A DNA stretch of 64,000 nt from Actinorhabdospora filicis (GTDB taxonomy: Bacteria; Actinomycetota; Actinomycetes; Mycobacteriales; Micromonosporaceae). The DNA lies in contig NZ_BSTX01000003.1 of the NCBI RefSeq assembly GCF_030269765.1, positions 496,001-560,000 on the forward strand, written 5' to 3'. This document shows positions 42,729-54,396 of the stretch, in pieces. Below the pieces are notes generated by a model, which saw only the letters and a program-made list of their open reading frames with translations, did no database searches and was not told the DNA's origin. Numbering within the stretch: the first letter of the stretch is position 1; each line of letters opens with the position of its first letter. Position numbers and translations under genes: made by a program.

Positions 42729-44573
42729 ATGCCGCAACTCCGCTCTCGCACCTCGACGCACGGACGCAACCAGGCCGGTGCCCGCGCCCTGTGGCGCGCC
42801 ACCGGCCTCACCGACGGCGACTTCGGCAAGCCCATCGTCGCCATCGCCAACAGCTACACCCAGTTCGTACCCGGCCACGTGCACCTCAAGGACCTCGGCG
42901 ACATCGTCGCCGGGTCGATCCGCGAGGCGGGCGGCGTTTCGCGCGAGTTCCACACCATCGCCGTCGACGACGGCATCGCCATGGGCCACGGCGGGATGCT
43001 CTACTCGCTGCCCAGCCGCGAGCTGATCGCCGACAGCGTCGAGTACATGGTCAACGCGCACTGCGCCGACGCCCTCGTGTGCATCTCCAACTGCGACAAG
43101 ATCACCCCCGGGATGCTGCTGGCCGCCCTGCGCCTGAACATCCCCACCGTCTTCGTCTCCGGCGGGCCCATGGAGGCCGGGCGCACCTTCGCCGTGGGCA
43201 ACGTGGTCAAGCCGCGCCTCGACCTCGTCGACGCCATGGTCGCCAGCGCCGACGCCTCGGTGGACGACGCGACCCTCGACGAGATCGAGCGCAACGCGTG
43301 CCCGACCTGCGGGTCCTGTTCGGGCATGTTCACCGCCAACTCGATGAACTGCCTGCTGGAGGCCATCGGCCTGGCCCTGCCGGGCAACGGCTCCACCCTG
43401 GCCACCCACGCCGCCCGCCGCGGCCTGTTCGAGCGCGCCGGGACCACCGTGATGGACCTGGCCCGCCGCTACTACGACGGCGACGACGAGTCGGTCCTGC
43501 CGCTGAACATCGCCACCCGCGAGGCCTTCGACAACGCGATGACCCTCGACGTGGCCATGGGCGGCTCCACCAACACCGTCCTGCACCTGCTGGCCGCCGC
43601 CCGCGAGGCCGGGGTCGAGTTCGGGGTCGGCGACATCGACGCCATCTCCCGGCGCGTGCCGTGCCTGTCCAAGGTCGCGCCGAACTCGCCGAAGTTCTTC
43701 ATGGAGGACGTGCACCGGGCCGGCGGCATCCCCGCGATCCTGGGTGAGCTGAACCGCGCCGGGCTGCTGAGCACCGGCGTCCGCAGCGTGCACTCGGCGG
43801 GCCTGGCCGACTGGCTCGACGACTGGGACGTGCGCGGCGGCAAGGCGGGGGAGGCGGCGATCGAGCTGTTCCACGCCGCGCCCGGCGGCGTCCGCACCAC
43901 CCAGGCCTTCTCGACCGAGAACCGCTGGGAGAGCCTGGACGTCGACGCGGCCAACGGGTGCATCCGCGACAACGCGCACGCCTACAGCGCCGACGGCGGC
44001 CTGGCGGTGCTGTTCGGGAACATCGCGCCGGAGGGCTGCGTGGTCAAGGCCGCGGGCGTGCCCGAGGAGTGCCTGACCTTCGCCGGGCGGGCGCGCGTCT
44101 TCGAGTCGCAGGACGACGCGGTCGCCGCGATCATGAACGACGAGGTCGTCCCCGGCGACGTCGTGGTGATCCGCTACGAGGGGCCGCGCGGCGGTCCCGG
44201 CATGCAGGAGATGCTCCACCCGACCTCGTTCCTGAAGGGCAAGGGCCTGGGCCGGGCGTGCGCGCTCATTACCGACGGCCGCTTCTCCGGCGGGACCTCG
44301 GGCCTGTCCATCGGGCACATCTCGCCCGAGGCGGCCTCGGGCGGCGCGATCGCGCTGGTCCGCGACGGCGACACGATCGCCATCGACATCGCCGCGCGCT
44401 CGATCGCACTGGAGGTCTCCGAGGACGAGCTGGCCGTGCGCCGCGCGAAGGAGGAGGCCCGCGAGCACCCGTACACGCCGGTGGACCGCGACCGCCCGGT
44501 GACCGCCGCGCTGCGCGCCTACGCGTCCATGGCCACCTCGGCCAGCGACGGGGCGTACCGCCTGGTGCCGTAA
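42729..44573 (+). CDS. ilvD: Dihydroxy-acid dehydratase
   Basis: A 614-residue Fe-S enzyme giving the 2-oxo acids of valine and isoleucine from dihydroxy acids. Cluster-binding Cys lie in [10 protein letters not shown] (near residue 121) and [11 protein letters not shown] (near 190-196). The C-terminal [16 protein letters not shown] is typical. The start [12 protein letters not shown] matches the family; a GTG 24 bases upstream is open. It is followed by a perfect terminator and separated by 6.2 kb from ilvBNC. Confidence 0.97.
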
Positions 44574-46465: not shown

Positions 46466-49093
46466 GTGTGGCGCACCTGGGGACAGCGGCGAGCTGAGAC
46501 TTTAACCGCCCTGCGCCGTGCCGTGCTGGCCTTCACCCTCCTCTACGCCGTCGGCATCGGCCTGCGGTACTTCGGCGACGACAAGCGCGTCCCCGGCCTC
46601 GGCACGGCATCGGTGGCCGTGGTCATCGCCGTCGCCTCGGCCGCCGCCGCCCACCTCGCCGACCGCCTTCCCGGACGCGAGGCCTACCGCAACATCGCCA
46701 TCGGCATGGGCGTGGGCGCCTTCTCCGTCGGCATCGCCGTCATCCTCGCCCGCCCCCACGCGCTGTGGGCCGTCGGCATCGGCAGCGTCATCTCGGCCGG
46801 CTTCTTCATCCACGGGCTCCTGCGGCTCCCCGGCGGCGTCAACGGCCTCGCGCCGCGCCTCGGCCTTGCCCTCGACGGCCTCATCATCGCCGCCTGCCTG
46901 TCCTTCACGATGTGGATGCTCTTCTTCGTCGACTACCGGCCCGACGCGCTCTCGCCCGCCTTCACCTGGAGCTACGGCTTCGTGCTGACCGTCGCGCTGC
47001 TGTCGGCGACCATCGTCGGCATCGGCATGGTCGCCGCCGTCCGCGCCACCGGATACCGCCGCGCCCACATCCTCCTCGCCCTCGGGCTGTCCATCGTGGC
47101 CCTGGCCGGGCCGCCGATGCTCATCGGCGTCGACGTCGGCTCCTACGGCATCTGCCGCGCGGCGATGCTGTCCTGGGGAGCCGGGGCCATGCTCGTGGTC
47201 ATCGCGCTGCTGTTCGGACTGCGCTCGCCGGGTGCCGCCCGCGCGCGGCCGATCCCGCACATCGGGCTGCTGGTCACCCTCGTGCCCACCGCGATCGCCG
47301 GTGGCGCGGCGATCTACCACGCCGCCGCGAAGGGGCCGCTGCGCCTGGACACCGTCATCGCCGCCGTGTTCGTGGTGGCCGCGCTGATCTCCCGGCAGAT
47401 CCTGACCCGCTTCGACGTCCGCCGCGCCGCCGAGCAGCTGGCCGACCGGGAGGCCTACTTCCGGTCCATCGTGGCCGGATCCTCCGAGGTCATCACCGTC
47501 CTCGACGACGACATGGTGGTGCGCTGGCAGTCGCCGTCCTCGACCTGGCGGATGGACTGGACCGAGGCGCAGGCGCGCGGCCGCTCCTTCGACGAGCTCG
47601 TCCACCCCGACGACGCCGCCCCCGTCCGCAAGCAGCTCACCCGCGCCCTCACCGGCGAGGCGGTCATCCTCGACGGCCGCATCATGGACGCCGACGGCGA
47701 CTGGCGCGACACCGAGTCCACCGTGGCCGACCACCGCGACGTCCCCCAGGTGCGCGGCCTGGTCGTCCACACCCGCGACGTCGGCGACCGCAAGCAGCTG
47801 GAGCGCGAACTGGCGCGCATGGCCTACGCCGACCCGCTCACCGGCCTGGCCAACCGCCGCCAGCTGCTGCGCAAACTGGAGAACGACGTCGCCGGATCCG
47901 GCATCCCCTGCACGATGCTGGCCATCGACCTCGACGAGTTCAAGAACGTCAATGACCTGCACGGCCACGACGTCGGCGACGAGGTCCTGGTCGAGGTCGC
48001 CGAGCGCCTGCGCGCCAACCTGCGGCCCACCGACCTGGGCGCCCGCCTCGGCGGCGACGAGTTCGCCGTCCTGCTCTGGTGCGGCGTCAAGGACGCCGGG
48101 GACATCGCCGAGCGGCTGCTGGCCGCGCTGTCGGAGCCCTACGACTGCGGGCGCACCCGCGTGTTCCTGTCGATCTCCATCGGCGTGGCCGGCTGCGGCA
48201 CCGCCGACGACGTCGAGACGCTCATGCGCAACGCCGACCTGGCCCTGCGCTTCGCCAAGGAGCGCGGCAAGAACCGCATCGAGCGCTACGACGCCGACTT
48301 CGAGGCCCTCGTCCGCCGCCGCACCACCCTGGAGCAGGAACTGCGCGGCGCCAACGAACGCGGCGAGCTGCACCTGGTCTACCAGCCCGTGGTCGCCCTC
48401 CCCGGCCGCGAGATCGTCGGCGCCGAGGCCCTGCTGCGCTGGACGCATCCCGTCCTCGGCTCGGTCTCGCCCGCCGAGTTCATCCCGGCCGCCGAATCGG
48501 CCGGGATCATGGACGAGCTGACCGCCTGGTCGCTGCGCGAGACCGCCGGGAAGCTGTCCCAGTGGCGCGCCTCCGGGCACCGGCTGTGGGTCTCGCTGAA
48601 CGTCTCGGTCCGGCAGCTGCACTCGCCGAACTTCGCCGTCGAGGTCGCCCAGTCCCTCGTGGAGCGCGGCGTCCCGCCGCACCAGCTGGTCGTGGAGATC
48701 ACCGAGCACGACGTCGCCTACGACGTCAACCGCCTGGTGGCGCAGCTGACCGGGCTGCGCGCGACGGGCGTCCGCATCGCCCTGGACGACTTCGGCGCCG
48801 GCTACTCCTCGCTGGGGCAGCTGCACCGGCTGCCGGTGGACATCATCAAGATCGACCGCGCGCTCGTCGTGGGCGCCGAGGACGGCACCGCGCCCCTCTC
48901 CGACGTGGTCGTGCGCCTGGGCGAGCGCCTCGGCCTCGACGTGATCGCCGAGGGCGTGGAGACCGAGGCGCAGCTGGCGCACGTCGTCGAGGCCGGTTGC
49001 CCGCTGGGGCAGGGCTACCTGTTCCACCGGCCGCTGATGGCGGTCGACCTGGAGGCGCGCCTCGCCGAGGGCGTGGCCGCGGCGGGGGACTAG
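46466..49093 (+). CDS. Membrane PAS-GGDEF-EAL cyclic di-GMP enzyme
   Basis: An 875-residue protein. About nine membrane helices fill residues 15-310, followed by a PAS domain (REAYFRSIVAGSSEVITVLD, residues 330-440). The diguanylate cyclase domain has GGDEF near residue 529. The phosphodiesterase domain has EALLRW near 653, NVSVRQLH, EITEHD, LDDFGAGYSS, KIDRAL and IAEGVETE. Both active sites look intact. The GTG start has no strong ribosome site. Its end overlaps the convergent MarR gene by four bases. Confidence 0.92.
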   Translation: MWRTWGQRRAETLTALRRAVLAFTLLYAVGIGLRYFGDDKRVPGLGTASVAVVIAVASAAAAHLADRLPGREAYRNIAIGMGVGAFSVGIAVILARPHALWAVGIGSVISAGFFIHGLLRLPGGVNGLAPRLGLALDGLIIAACLSFTMWMLFFVDYRPDALSPAFTWSYGFVLTVALLSATIVGIGMVAAVRATGYRRAHILLALGLSIVALAGPPMLIGVDVGSYGICRAAMLSWGAGAMLVVIALLFGLRSPGAARARPIPHIGLLVTLVPTAIAGGAAIYHAAAKGPLRLDTVIAAVFVVAALISRQILTRFDVRRAAEQLADREAYFRSIVAGSSEVITVLDDDMVVRWQSPSSTWRMDWTEAQARGRSFDELVHPDDAAPVRKQLTRALTGEAVILDGRIMDADGDWRDTESTVADHRDVPQVRGLVVHTRDVGDRKQLERELARMAYADPLTGLANRRQLLRKLENDVAGSGIPCTMLAIDLDEFKNVNDLHGHDVGDEVLVEVAERLRANLRPTDLGARLGGDEFAVLLWCGVKDAGDIAERLLAALSEPYDCGRTRVFLSISIGVAGCGTADDVETLMRNADLALRFAKERGKNRIERYDADFEALVRRRTTLEQELRGANERGELHLVYQPVVALPGREIVGAEALLRWTHPVLGSVSPAEFIPAAESAGIMDELTAWSLRETAGKLSQWRASGHRLWVSLNVSVRQLHSPNFAVEVAQSLVERGVPPHQLVVEITEHDVAYDVNRLVAQLTGLRATGVRIALDDFGAGYSSLGQLHRLPVDIIKIDRALVVGAEDGTAPLSDVVVRLGERLGLDVIAEGVETEAQLAHVVEAGCPLGQGYLFHRPLMAVDLEARLAEGVAAAGD

Positions 49094-49548
49094 GCCCGCT
49101 CCAGCACCCGCTCCCGGAACGGCTTGCGCTCCACCGCGGCCAGCACCGCGAGCAGGACCTCGGCCAGCGGGGCGGGGAGTTCGGCGTCCAGCTCGGCCAT
49201 CGCCTCCGAGACCACCCGCCATTCGCGCTCCACCGCCGGGAGCAGCGCCTCGGCGCGCGGGGTGAGGTGGGCGATGCGCTGCCGGGCGTCGTCGCCGGGG
49301 CGCAGCTCGACCAGGTCGCGCTCGGTGAGCTGGGCGACGGTCTGGCTGGCCGCGGAGTGGGTCACCCCGATGGCGGCGGCCAGGTCCCGGATCGGCAGCG
49401 GCCCGCGCGCCAGCGCGCGCAGGACGGGGGAGAAGCGCGGCCGGTAGTCCTCCGGCAGGCCCAGCGCGGCCTGGGCGCGGGCGACGTCGCCGTCGAGGAC
49501 GTCGTGGACGTGCCGCAGCAGGGTCCCCACGGCTTCGCGATCGATCAT
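49090..49548 (-). CDS. MarR-family regulator next to proline iminopeptidase
   Basis: A 152-residue winged helix-turn-helix protein: PIRDLAAAIGVTHSAASQTVAQL recognition region (residues 52-74) and wing ELRPGDDARQRIAHLT. It is divergent from the iminopeptidase gene; a TAACAG-CA-CTGTTA dyad lies 11 bases upstream of its start. Confidence 0.88.
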   Translation of the reverse strand: MIDREAVGTLLRHVHDVLDGDVARAQAALGLPEDYRPRFSPVLRALARGPLPIRDLAAAIGVTHSAASQTVAQLTERDLVELRPGDDARQRIAHLTPRAEALLPAVEREWRVVSEAMAELDAELPAPLAEVLLAVLAAVERKPFRERVLERA

Positions 49549-49588: not shown

Positions 49589-50545
49589 ATGAGCCGCTAC
49601 CCGGAGATCGAACCGTACGAGACCGGCGTGCTCGACGTCGGCGACGGCAACCGCGTGCGCTGGGAGGTGAGCGGGAACCCCGCCGGCAAGCCCGCGGTGG
49701 TCTTCCACGGCGGACCCGGCTCGGGCGCCACCCCGGGCTGGCGGCGCTACTTCGACCCGGCGCGCTACCGGATCGTGCTCTTCGACCAGCGCGGCAGCGG
49801 CGGCAGCACACCCGACGCCGGGCTCGTCACCACCGACCTCTCGGTGAACACCACCGCCCACCTGATCGCCGACGCCGAGCGGCTCCGCGAGCACCTGGGC
49901 GTCGAGCGCTGGCTGATCATGGGCGCCTCCTGGGGCGCGACGCTCGGGCAGGCCTACGCGCAGGCCCACCCGTCCCGGGTCAGCGAGGCCGTCCTGTTCA
50001 GCGTGACGCAGACGACGCGCCGCGAGGTCGACTGGGTCACCGGCGACATGCGGCGGGTCTTCCCCGCCGAGTGGGAGCGCTTCCGCGCAGCCGTCCCCGC
50101 CCCGATGCGCGACATGCGCCTGGTGGACGCCTACGCCGAACTGCTCGCCGACCACGACGAGCGGGTGCGCGAGGAGGCCGCCCGCGCCTGGTGCGCGTGG
50201 GAGGACACACACGTGGCCACCGTCCCCGGCTACGAGCCCGACGAGCGGTACCTGGACCCGGTCTTCCGCATGCGGTTCGCGCGCCTGGTCACCCACTACT
50301 GGCGCCACTCCGCCTGGTACGCCGACGGCGAGCTCATGGCCGGTGCCGCCGCTCTGGGAGACATCCCCGCCGTCCTCATCCACGGCCGCCTCGACGTGAG
50401 CGGCCCCATCGACATCGCCCACGATCTGGCCCACGCGTGGCCCGGCGCCGAACTCGTCGTGGTCGAGGATGCCGGGCACGGCGCCTACCCGGGGACGGTG
50501 GAGAGCGTGCTGGCGGCCACCGATCGCTTCGCCGCCAACGGATAG
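49589..50545 (+). CDS. pip: Proline iminopeptidase-like alpha/beta hydrolase
   Basis: A 318-residue serine peptidase of family S33 that removes N-terminal proline. Motifs: HGGPGSGATPG oxyanion loop, FDQRGSGGS, nucleophile elbow GASWGATLGQAYAQ, then HGRLDVSGP (Asp) and DAGHGAYP (His). The ATG follows GAGGAGGAC. Likely repressed by the divergent MarR protein. Confidence 0.9.
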   Translation: MSRYPEIEPYETGVLDVGDGNRVRWEVSGNPAGKPAVVFHGGPGSGATPGWRRYFDPARYRIVLFDQRGSGGSTPDAGLVTTDLSVNTTAHLIADAERLREHLGVERWLIMGASWGATLGQAYAQAHPSRVSEAVLFSVTQTTRREVDWVTGDMRRVFPAEWERFRAAVPAPMRDMRLVDAYAELLADHDERVREEAARAWCAWEDTHVATVPGYEPDERYLDPVFRMRFARLVTHYWRHSAWYADGELMAGAAALGDIPAVLIHGRLDVSGPIDIAHDLAHAWPGAELVVVEDAGHGAYPGTVESVLAATDRFAANG

Positions 50546-50617
50546 CGCCATCGAGGTCGTCGCGGCCCGGTGACAAACGCCATTCCCACCCACCGCGACG
50601 ACATCTCAGCATCCGGG

Positions 50618-50631
50618 ATGAGTTGACTCAT
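50618..50631 (+). promoter_or_regulatory. Palindrome overlapping a possible ilvB promoter
   Basis: ATGAGTTGACTCAT has perfect six-base arms around TG and contains TTGACT (50623-50628), which could be a -35 box. No convincing -10 was found at 17 bases. The leader peptide begins 27 bases downstream. Confidence 0.4.
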
Positions 50632-50657
50632 GGCATGAGATCGGGCAGTCTTACCGG

Positions 50658-50711
50658 GTGCGTTCATGCTTGATGAGCGCTGCCCCCGCGCAGCGCCTCG
50701 TACTTATCTAG
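50658..50711 (+). CDS. ilv leader peptide ending in Leu-Val-Leu-Ile
   Basis: A GTG start at 50658 opens a 17-codon frame, [17 protein letters not shown], ending CTC-GTA-CTT-ATC-TAG. A run of branched-chain codons right before the stop is the hallmark of translational attenuation in ilvB leaders of other actinobacteria. An internal ATG at 50673 gives a 12-residue form. No strong ribosome site is visible for either. Confidence 0.7.
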
Positions 50712-50771
50712 CGCGCCGTCGTTCCAACGACGGTGCGCCCGCCCCCGTGCGTCTTGCACGCGGGGTTTTTT
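50677..50771 (+). promoter_or_regulatory. ilvBNC transcription attenuator
   Basis: Three stems follow in order. GCGCTGC/GCAGCGC (50677-50696) lies within the leader codons. GCGCGCCGTCGTT/AACGACGGTGCGC (50711-50738) is the second. The terminator hairpin is at 50742-50765, followed by six Ts (50766-50771). Ribosome stalling at the LVLI codons would change pairing and let transcription enter ilvB. The exact antiterminator pairing was not folded. Confidence 0.78.
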
Positions 50772-50829
50772 GTTACCCGAAAACCGCCCCAGGACCTCAC
50801 AGCAGAGAAACTTCCACCGAGCGAACCGG

Positions 50830-52686
50830 ATGAAGGTCATGACAGATCCCGTCAAGCATCCAGTCCCACACCCGCCCGCGGCGGCCACGCCGCTCGCCCT
50901 CGCCGGCCGCGCCGCTCTCCCGGCGCAGCGGCAGGCGGGCGTCGAGGTAACCGGCGCGCAGTCGCTCATCAAGTCGCTAGAGGCGCTCGACGTGGAGGTC
51001 GTCTTCGGGATCCCGGGAGGGGCGATCCTCCCCGCCTACGACCCGATGCTGGACTCGACGAAGGTCCGGCACATCCTGGTCCGGCACGAGCAGGGCGGCG
51101 GCCACGCCGCCACCGGGTACGCGCAGGCCACCGGCAAGGTCGGCGTCTGCATGGCCACCTCCGGCCCCGGCGCGACGAACCTCGTCACGCCCATCGCCGA
51201 CGCCTACATGGACTCGGTGCCGCTGGTCGCCATCACCGGGCAGGTCTCGCGCAACCTGATCGGCACCGACGGGTTCCAGGAAGCCGACATCGTCGGCATC
51301 ACCATGCCCATCACCAAGCACAATTACCTGGTCACCGAGGCCGAAGAGATCCCGCGCGTGCTCGCCGAGGCCTTCCACCTCGCCGCCACCGGACGCCCCG
51401 GGCCCGTCCTGGTCGACATCCCCAAGGACGTCCTCCAGGCCAGGACCACCTTCTCCTGGCCGCCGCGCAAGGAACTGCCCGGCTACAAGCCGACCACGCA
51501 CCCGCACGGCAAGCAGGTCCGCCAGGCCGCCGAGCTGCTCGCCGAGGCGTCCCGGCCCGTCCTGTACGTCGGCGGCGGCACCCTCAAGGCCGGCGCCACC
51601 GACGAGCTGTACGCGCTGGCCGAGAAGAGCGGCGCGCCCGTCGTCACCACCCTGATGGCGCGCGGCGCGTTCCCCGACTCGCACCCGCAGCACCTGGGCA
51701 TGCCCGGCATGCACGGCACCGTCTCGGCCGTCTACGCCCTCCAGCGCTCGGACCTGATCCTGGCCCTCGGCGCGCGCTTCGACGACCGCGTCACCGGCAA
51801 GCTCGACAGCTTCGCGCCGGACGCCAAGATCGTCCACGTCGACATCGACCCCGCCGAGATCGGCAAGAACCGGCACGCCGACGTCCCCATCGTCGGCGAC
51901 GCCAAGGCCGCCATCGGCCAGCTGGTGGAGGCCCTCGCCGAGTCCGGCGGACGCGAAGCGCCCCGCCTCGCGCAGTGGTGGGCGCAGCTGGACGACCTGC
52001 GCCGCCGCTACCCGCTCGGCTACGACCGTCCCACCGACGGCGCGCTCGCCCCGCAGTACGTCATCCAGCGCATCGGCGAGATCGCCGGTCCGGACGCGCT
52101 GTACGCCACCGGCGTCGGGCAGCACCAGATGTGGGCGGCGCAGTTCATCTCCTACGAGAAGCCGTACACGTTCCTGAACTCCGGCGGCGCCGGGACGATG
52201 GGATACGCGGTCCCGGCGGCGATGGGCGCGAAGTTCGGGCGTCCCGACAAGGTCGTGTGGGCCATCGACGGCGACGGCTGCTTCCAGATGACCAACCAGG
52301 AGCTGGCCACCTGCGCCATCGAGGGCATCCCCGTCAAGATCGCGGTGATCAACAACGGGAACCTGGGCATGGTCCGCCAGTGGCAGACCCTGTTCTACGA
52401 CAAGCGCTACTCGAACACGAACCTGGGGACGCACGGCAGCGGCCGGATCCCCGACTTCGTGAAGCTGGCCGAGGCCCTCGGCTGCGTCGGCCTGCGCTGC
52501 GAGTCCTATGAGGACGTCGACCGGGTCATCAACGAGGCCATGGCGATCAACGACCGGCCCGTGGTGATCGACTTCATCGTGGGCGCCGACGCGCAGGTGT
52601 GGCCGATGGTGGCCGCCGGCACCGGCAACGACGAGATCATGTTCGCGCGGGACGTGCGTCCCATCTTCGACGAGGACGACCTGTGA
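50830..52686 (+). CDS. ilvB: Acetolactate synthase, large subunit
   Basis: A 618-residue TPP enzyme that makes acetolactate or acetohydroxybutyrate. Motifs: [15 protein letters not shown], the catalytic Glu in [17 protein letters not shown]-binding [13 protein letters not shown], and the TPP motif GDGCFQ ending in INN. ATGs at 50830 and 50839 are both possible; neither has ideal spacing. An extra Pro/Ala-rich stretch of about 35 residues precedes the conserved VTGAQSL start. It is the first gene of ilvB-ilvN-ilvC, controlled by the attenuator. Confidence 0.96.
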
Positions 52687-52768
52687 GTGAGCGCAGCGAG
52701 CGAACCAGAAAACAGGGCATGACGTTCTTCGCGCCGACGACGAAGCGCAATATGTGGAAGGTGCCGCG

Positions 52769-53284
52769 ATGACTACACACACCCTTTCCGTCCTGGTGGA
52801 GAACAAGCCGGGTGTCCTGGCCCGGGTGTCGGCGCTGTTCTCGCGGCGCGGCTTCAACATCGACTCCCTCGCCGTGGGCGAGACCGAACAGCCCGGCGTC
52901 TCCCGGATCACCATCGTGGTCAATGTGGACGAACAGCCGCTGGAGCAGGTCACCAAGCAGCTCAATAAGCTGGTGAACGTCCTCAAGATCGTCGAACTGG
53001 AACCGTCCTCGTCGGTGCAGCGCGAACTGCTGCTCGTCAAGGTCCGCGCCGACGCCACCACGCGATCGCAGGTGGTGGAGGCCGTGGAACTGTTCCGCGC
53101 CAGGGTCGTCGACGTCGCGCCGGACAGCGTGATCGTCGAAGCCACCGGTACCGCCGACAAACTCGGCGCGTTGCTGCGGCTCCTGGAGCCCTACGGGATC
53201 AAGGAGATGGTCCAATCGGGTCTCGTCGCCGTCGGACGCGGCAGCAAGGCCATCACGACCCCGGCTCTGCGCAGCGCCGCGTAG
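52769..53284 (+). CDS. ilvN: Acetolactate synthase, small regulatory subunit
   Basis: A 171-residue subunit. An N-terminal ACT domain (LSVLVENKPGVLARVSALFS, then RRGFNIDSLAVG) binds valine for feedback inhibition, and a C-terminal domain (LLLVKVRADATTRSQVVEAV) activates IlvB. GGAAGGTG lies before the ATG at 52769. It lies 82 bases after ilvB; that gap contains a GAGCGCAGCGAGCGAACC repeat-like stretch. Confidence 0.95.
   Translation: MTTHTLSVLVENKPGVLARVSALFSRRGFNIDSLAVGETEQPGVSRITIVVNVDEQPLEQVTKQLNKLVNVLKIVELEPSSSVQRELLLVKVRADATTRSQVVEAVELFRARVVDVAPDSVIVEATGTADKLGALLRLLEPYGIKEMVQSGLVAVGRGSKAITTPALRSAA

Positions 53285-54396
<1,112 letters not shown>

Follow-up and report, generated by a model that had tools for sequence, protein, structure and literature searches.

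Leader and operon

What controls ilvBNC, the operon for making valine, leucine and isoleucine, in the soil-type actinobacterium Actinorhabdospora filicis, and how would a leader in front of the operon do so? In the window, by which we mean the whole 64,000-nucleotide stretch of DNA that was analyzed, a leader sits between a prolyl aminopeptidase gene and ilvB-ilvN-ilvC, directly upstream of the three genes, which follow in that order by NCBIfam profile matches (Table 1). The first-pass annotation had assigned an attenuator at this place to ilvBNC, and the profile matches agree with it. The region 50604-50771 is most likely the ilvBNC promoter together with a ribosome-mediated transcription attenuator built on a leader peptide, of the type known for ilvB in actinobacteria. 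Many members of the Micromonosporaceae produce antibiotics, and branched-chain precursors are important to them.

What was noted here is genuine, though it belongs to a type already known. A prediction of leader peptides with terminators in front of ilvB dates from 2005 (Seliverstov 2005; PMC1262725), and ilvB leader attenuators have been described in Corynebacterium, Mycobacterium and Streptomyces (PMC1262725, PMC8079986, PMC10272879, PMC11857589, PMC13236596). They have been put to experimental test in C. glutamicum and M. tuberculosis (PMC11857589, PMC13236596), and the mechanism in Streptomyces is reported to be unclear. A literature search returned no paper joining Micromonospora, ilvB and leader peptide; outside its results lies an RNA-seq study of Actinoplanes from 2017 (J. 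Biotechnol. 251), which PMC8079986 cites for such leaders and in which the family-level case may already be in print. Rfam 15 gave no match at the gathering threshold in the whole window. One model below threshold, RF02837 (27.5 of 49.5 bits, E = 0.0002), consists of two hairpins and a U run, and we take its match as a chance resemblance.

Table 1. Features of the ilvBNC promoter, leader and operon (window positions)
Feature	Position	Strand	Basis or remark
15-bp dyad TCTCAGCATCCGGGA, probable NdgR/LtbR-type (IclR) operator	50604..50618	+	4 nt upstream of -35
-35 hexamer TTGACT	50623..50628	+	TTGA 35 or 36 nt before in-frame start codon in 98/98 leaders
Putative -10 CAGTCT (nAnnnT)	50646..50651	+	17-nt spacer; by eye
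17-codon leader peptide ORF starting with GTG, probably leaderless	50658..50711	+	Sequence, family comparison, S. lividans IlvL RNA-seq (PMC8079986)
Control codons CTC-GTA-CTT-ATC	50697..50708	+	Conserved and rare: GTA and CTT
Stem II, GC-rich hairpin, 50711-50722 paired with 50727-50738	50711..50738	+	Fold; covariation; modelled occupancy
Intrinsic terminator, 50741-50750 paired with 50756-50760 and 50762-50766	50741..50771	+	Fold, alignment, terminator scan
ilvB, acetolactate synthase large subunit	50839..52686	+	NCBIfam PRK07789, 1118.5 bits (cut-off 881)
ilvN, acetolactate synthase small subunit	52763..53284	+	NCBIfam PRK11895, TIGR00119
ilvC, ketol-acid reductoisomerase	53330..54343	+	NCBIfam PRK05479, TIGR00465

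Several neighbors deserve mention. The prolyl aminopeptidase gene upstream of the leader (49589-50545, plus strand) matches TIGR01249, and a frame beyond it (49090-49548, minus strand) has weak matches to MarR/ArsR-type regulators, below their cut-offs. The window also contains an ilvD gene (TIGR00110) at 42780-44558, some 6 kb ahead of ilvBNC. For ilvB itself there are two start candidates, ATG 50830 and ATG 50839; by eye, the ATGAC form at 50839 is favored in some relatives.

The leader design recurs across the family

We gathered 99 loci, the window's own included, from 300 genomes searched in the same family, Micromonosporaceae: 29 came through similarity to the leader DNA and 70 through IlvB matches (40 of these 70 hand-chosen from the listing). 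The leader design recurs in 98 of the 99, a count that includes the window's own locus and five duplicates, and the one locus that does not fit is L110. The loci derived from IlvB are the fairer sample, and all 70 fit. Removal of L110 and the five same-genome duplicates left 93 distinct loci, among them the window's own. The same type of leader occurs in Virgisporangium, Salinispora and Dactylosporangium, the first three named IlvB matches listed. Many loci among 80 IlvB matches, chiefly from Microbacteriaceae and other Micrococcales, have no T run of five, and these groups may be without this leader design.

Comparison gives good support to what the first-pass annotation had predicted, namely that a branched-chain leader peptide attenuates ilvBNC: the design is conserved family-wide and matches the published actinobacterial ilvB leaders.

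The leader ORF carries two near-invariant rare codons

The ORF runs from GTG 50658 to TAG 50709-50711 and ends CTC-GTA-CTT-ATC-TAG (Leu-Val-Leu-Ile), exactly the 17-codon frame noted earlier. GTA is present in 92/93 and CTT in 93/93 distinct loci, counts to be read with the knowledge that loci were recruited with the pattern GT[AT]CTT, which itself asks for these codons. Both codons are rare: in seven ORFs of the window, GTA accounts for 1 of 285 Val codons and CTT for 5 of 288 Leu codons. The final leader codon is variable (ACC, Thr, in 49/93 distinct loci and ATC in 22/93), and at the position of the window's Leu-Val-Leu-Ile most other family leaders keep only Val-Leu or Val-Val-Leu. Since the last codon is free, the conserved sensor in the family would be Val-Leu, and the window's Ile is not part of it. 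ORF length ranges from 9 to 35 codons across the 93 distinct loci.

These codons have counterparts elsewhere. GTACTT, as here, is found in the Streptomyces and Kitasatospora loci L018, L019 and L025. The Corynebacterium ilvB-II motif and the C. glutamicum ilvBNC attenuator likewise use CUU and GUA as control codons, in a uORF described as usually 15-17 codons long, to which the window's 17 compare (PMC10272879, PMC11857589). The M. tuberculosis ilvB1NC attenuator resembles the window in having a terminator and a long leader, with a uORF that is translated there; its control codons are LVVI with GUA, against LVLI with GTA in the window (PMC13236596). Regulation in M. tuberculosis was tested by experiment (PMC13236596); for the window's leader it is predicted.

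The transcript probably starts at the leader start codon

The -35 hexamer TTGACT is conserved and the -10 CAGTCT is weak; a generic sigma-70 scan called no promoter at the leader. In all 98 leaders that fit the design an in-frame start codon (ATG in 65, GTG in 33) lies 35 nt (25 loci) or 36 nt (73 loci) past the 5' T of the -35. The distance from promoter to start is fixed while ORF length varies, which is the pattern expected from a leaderless transcript. The ilvBNC mRNA therefore probably begins at or next to the leader start codon. By RNA-seq the S. lividans IlvL leader is leaderless (PMC8079986), as is probable here, and for C. glutamicum ilvBNC the transcript start is placed one nt from the start codon (PMC11857589).

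Between -35 and -10 the promoter spacer holds a CTCA-N5-TGAG repeat (50627-50639). Inspection by eye finds it in many relatives, not in all, and by the same inspection it appears to exceed what a promoter needs, so that it could be the mark of a second regulator or a promoter feature.

Two conserved hairpins follow the ORF

RNA 50658-50775 folds at -60.3 kcal/mol (z = -5.81, 200 shuffles) into structures at 50658-50703, 50711-50738 and 50741-50766. Three stems had been described before; three structures are indeed present in the fold and the second and third are conserved, but the first is not generally so. Of the 93 distinct leaders, 14, among them the window's, contain a perfect 6-bp stem at any place in the ORF; ORFs down to 9 codons leave little room for one. 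The H1 hairpin of C. glutamicum is accordingly without a general counterpart in this family. The last stem ends, as also described before, in a U tract of six Ts (50766-50771), and a terminator scan scored it in two overlapping versions, against an average of 0.1 in shuffles.

Conservation of stem II and the terminator was measured on an alignment (A1) of 34 of 42 non-redundant loci. L135 was omitted from it (the T run was set inside the terminator loop), as were L128, L130, L141, L162, L165, L168 and L173, with long or odd stem II loops. Over the 10 consensus pairs of stem II and the 7 of the terminator, 97.1% of cells are paired. Covariation was judged by five measures, two of them weaker. 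Changes on both sides of a pair were found in 35 cells, compared with 11.1 in shuffles, and none of 500 shuffles reached as high. The weaker measures were the number of pairs with a two-sided change (6 versus 3.7; 13/500 shuffles as high) and pair types (129/500 as high). The two-sided changes belong mostly to stem II, where they affect 5 of the 10 consensus pairs; the terminator has one such pair.

Stem II begins at the last base of the leader stop codon and abuts the terminator. The gap between the two hairpins is -1 to +1 nt in 88/92 loci, made up of 28 with a one-base overlap, 48 with a gap of 0 and 12 with a gap of +1. The remaining four have one locus each at -5, -4, +2 (the window) and +22. 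With its gap of +2, the window's pair has no base in common. This arrangement resembles the three-hairpin attenuator of C. glutamicum, in which a strong terminator stands beside the second hairpin; there, however, antiterminator and terminator are described as sharing a GCC trinucleotide (PMC10272879, PMC11857589), and a shared boundary trinucleotide of that kind was not seen in the 88 of 92 loci at gaps of -1 to +1, nor in the window.

The S. lividans ilvBHC leader (ilvL; IlvL, MRTRILVLGKRVG*) is similar in its position upstream of the ilvB operon, its short ORF with branched-chain codons, its hairpins and its U-rich tract (PMC8079986). The IlvL ORF as given there continues past the control codons into a GCGCGT hairpin arm, whereas here a single codon separates CTT from the stop, and the hairpin starts from the last stop-codon base. 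In the mycobacterial locus L021, unlike in the window, the stop follows the 5' arm of the stem.

Ribosome position and stem II

To model a translating ribosome, RNA was masked to 13 nt past the codon centre, near the 26-nt footprint given in PMC13236596; both the footprint and the energy model are assumed, and the values on GTA change if the mask is moved by a few nt. Equilibrium folding and stem II occupancy were computed for 92 loci and capture of the terminator 5' arm for 91. Stem II occupancy follows the ribosome, falling from 0.93 on the codon before GTA to 0.66 on GTA, 0.37 on CTT and 0.22 at the stop. The terminator, by comparison of its states at equilibrium, hardly responds: the six bases before the U tract are paired whatever the ribosome position (means 0.86-0.90, with a minimum of 0.66), and from GTA to stop the shift exceeds 0.2 in none of the 92 loci.

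We also scored capture, the pairing of the terminator 5' arm with upstream RNA before the 3' arm is made, with E. coli trpL, leuL and thrL as controls (ivbL has no six-T run within 150 nt and was unscored). These resemble the window's leader in having a leader peptide, control codons and a terminator. On their control codons capture was 0.62 for trpL, 0.67 for leuL and about 0.9 at most Thr/Ile codons of thrL; at the stop it was 0.04, 0.01 and 0.00, with leuL back to 0.3-0.4 in between. The family gave the opposite order, with means of 0.18 on GTA and 0.46 at the stop; capture differed by more than 0.2 toward the stop in 70/91 loci and toward GTA in 1/91. A 2:3 antiterminator that is captured at the control codons and freed at the stop was thus recovered in the E. 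coli controls and not in the family, and neither equilibrium folding nor capture before the 3' arm found a classical antiterminator at the control codons. Outside the family, capture was at most 0.17 on the codon before the first GTA and mostly rose afterwards, in 23 of 25 loci of other Actinobacteria; the 25 were hand-picked out of 80 for a visible T run and leader, and the 23 are those with that codon printed. RNA folding, the check proposed with the original prediction, accordingly gives a divided answer: stem II tracks the ribosome, but the stems do not form a textbook 1:2/2:3/3:4 attenuator.

How the leader may act

These results suggest the following mechanism. Transcription would start at the GTG of the 17-codon ORF, and a ribosome would be slowed at the rare GUA and CUU codons when charged Val-tRNA or Leu-tRNA is scarce. 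Its position would then decide whether stem II forms. With the ribosome on CUC or GUA, stem II would be mostly free and would fold directly against the terminator; with the ribosome at the stop codon, the 5' arm of stem II would be covered and the terminator would stand alone. An abutting stem II would hinder the terminator and give read-through (operon on), and its absence would give termination (operon off). Hindrance of the terminator by the abutting stem II, as has been proposed for C. glutamicum, would be the most likely mode of action. The modelled behavior of stem II fits both the role assigned in C. glutamicum to the second hairpin and the logic of exposure on stalling proposed for M. 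tuberculosis, but in this family the two hairpins have hardly any bases in common. We give even odds that stem II is the antiterminator.

A more specific possibility, which we put forward tentatively and consider less probable, is that in the Micromonosporaceae-type ilvB leader termination is weakened by contact of a hairpin flush with the terminator and not by competition for bases, without any base-paired antiterminator. The ribosome on the two near-invariant rare codons would do no more than permit or forbid the flush hairpin. If true, this could account for the paradoxical Streptomyces results too. For ilvB leaders in general the comparative set offers a precise test, with a near-invariant GTA-CTT and a terminator-abutting hairpin that shares at most one base in 88/92 loci.

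There are two other ways to read the leader. In a classical four-segment attenuator, a variant within attenuation that we regard as unlikely, stem II would be the protector (1:2), and its 3' arm with the terminator 5' arm would form the antiterminator (2:3), so that a ribosome held up towards the ORF's end would mask the stem II 5' arm and cause read-through. With that arm masked, many loci do allow the 3' arm to pair with the terminator 5' arm. Among the truncated RNAs listed, minimum energies range from -1.4 to -15.2 kcal/mol, with -8.3 for the window (some include other hairpins), and capture, 0.02 while the ribosome edge lies where stem II starts, grows to 0.16 at +2, 0.31 at +4 and 0.46 at +12. 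The order of capture along the ORF speaks against this arrangement, being weak on GTA and stronger at the stop, the reverse of what trpL, leuL and thrL give under the same script and of an antiterminator favored at control codons. For the four-segment arrangement to work, the ribosome would have to wait at CTT or beyond and then leave the stop quickly.

It is improbable that the leader is a constitutive partial terminator behind an unregulated short ORF, with amino-acid control exerted only through an upstream NdgR/LtbR-type regulator. The stability of the terminator across all modelled ribosome states and the good conservation of the operator-like dyad upstream would agree with it. So would the S. 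coelicolor leader, in which substitutions of the control codons reportedly were without effect and regulation was kept (Craster 1999, as told in PMC1262725), a result that also counts against the favored reading. Against the partial terminator stand the rare and near-invariant codons for Val and Leu, whose distance to stem II is fixed, and the M. tuberculosis leader in which LVVI was changed to AAAA, for which low, inhibitor-independent expression is reported (PMC13236596).

A conserved dyad upstream of the -35

In addition to attenuation, there would be a second layer of control, probably through an NdgR/LtbR-type IclR regulator bound to the dyad that immediately precedes the -35. The dyad pattern TCYCRNNATNYGRGA is present with at most two mismatches at this position in 92/93 distinct loci. 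The site at 50604-50618 has one mismatch to the NdgR/LtbR motif KTYCRSMWYSYGRRM published in PMC8222616, a loose motif with 27 sites at up to one mismatch in the window.

Because the pattern was written from ilvB leaders, the ilvB site carries no weight in a genome search. With that site among them, the 7.2-Mb genome has 8 exact dyad sites, versus 1 for the reversed pattern; the exact sites other than that at ilvB show 1 to 3 mismatches to the loose published motif. One exact site lies 35 nt before a leuC match and beside an IclR gene, a frame on the other strand with IclR_C and HTH_IclR domains whose longest form overlaps the dyad site. Another lies about 207 nt before leuA. The dyad is therefore shared, occurring upstream of both ilvB and leuC, the latter beside the IclR gene. 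Some 100 nt ahead of a leuB-like match (257.6 of 353.2 bits, below the family cut-off) lies a site with one mismatch, and for ilvD no site with at most one mismatch was seen within 1.6 kb upstream in this genome.

The leuC association holds in the family. Among loci from 30 of 39 genomes, the window's included, a dyad within 150 nt upstream of leuC was found in 30/30 at up to two mismatches and in 24/30 at up to one, compared with 1/30 for the reversed pattern. The leuA signal, from 30 of 36 genomes, is weaker: 21/30 have a dyad at up to two mismatches within 350 nt, and 3/30 the reversed pattern.

In S. coelicolor NdgR is reported to bind upstream of ilvB, ilvD, leuB and leuC, and weakly at leuA (PMC4340878). 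The likeness to the NdgR/LtbR regulon (PMC4340878, PMC8222616) lies in a 15-bp imperfect palindrome at ilvB, leuC and leuA and an IclR gene adjoining leuC. Two differences are that half-sites here are TCCCA/TGGGA-like, those of the regulon being TYCAC/GTGGAC-like, and that ilvD, bound by NdgR in S. coelicolor, has no site seen here. From these comparisons the regulator at the dyad is probably an NdgR/LtbR-type IclR protein, and it may activate rather than repress.

The first-pass annotation had instead predicted repression through a perfect palindrome, ATGAGT-TG-ACTCAT (50618-50631), over the -35. The palindrome is there, with exact arms and a 2-nt spacer across the -35, but a repressor operator at it is very improbable: it is exact in 1/93 distinct loci, the window's own, and its left arm varies (most often ATCAGT, 42, or AAAAGT, 21) while the -35 is constant. 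Repeats of its form (exact arms, 2-nt spacer) are common, with 58 in the window and a mean of 41.7 (30-60) in 20 simple shuffles. We judge it a coincidence of this genome, and repression through it is not supported. A regulator more likely acts at the conserved dyad, 50604-50618, so that the probable operator is no longer the chance palindrome but this NdgR-like dyad, common to leuC and leuA.

Some observations on the dyad and on repeats remain. In L113 (genus g5) several operator-like dyads (TCCCGATATTCGGGA and variants) apparently stand in a row upstream of the ilvB promoter. Five more exact dyad sites of the present genome are at G000:C4:413674, C8:123960, C2:1593142, C1:1891111 and C4:447359, and a caspase-like EACC1-associated frame adjoins the site at C4:413674. 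The 15-mer TCTCGGGATAGGAGA occurs at least 15 times on contigs C1-C3 (for example C1:124876-124890 and C3:448403-448417), and this recurrence suggests a dispersed repeat in this genome.
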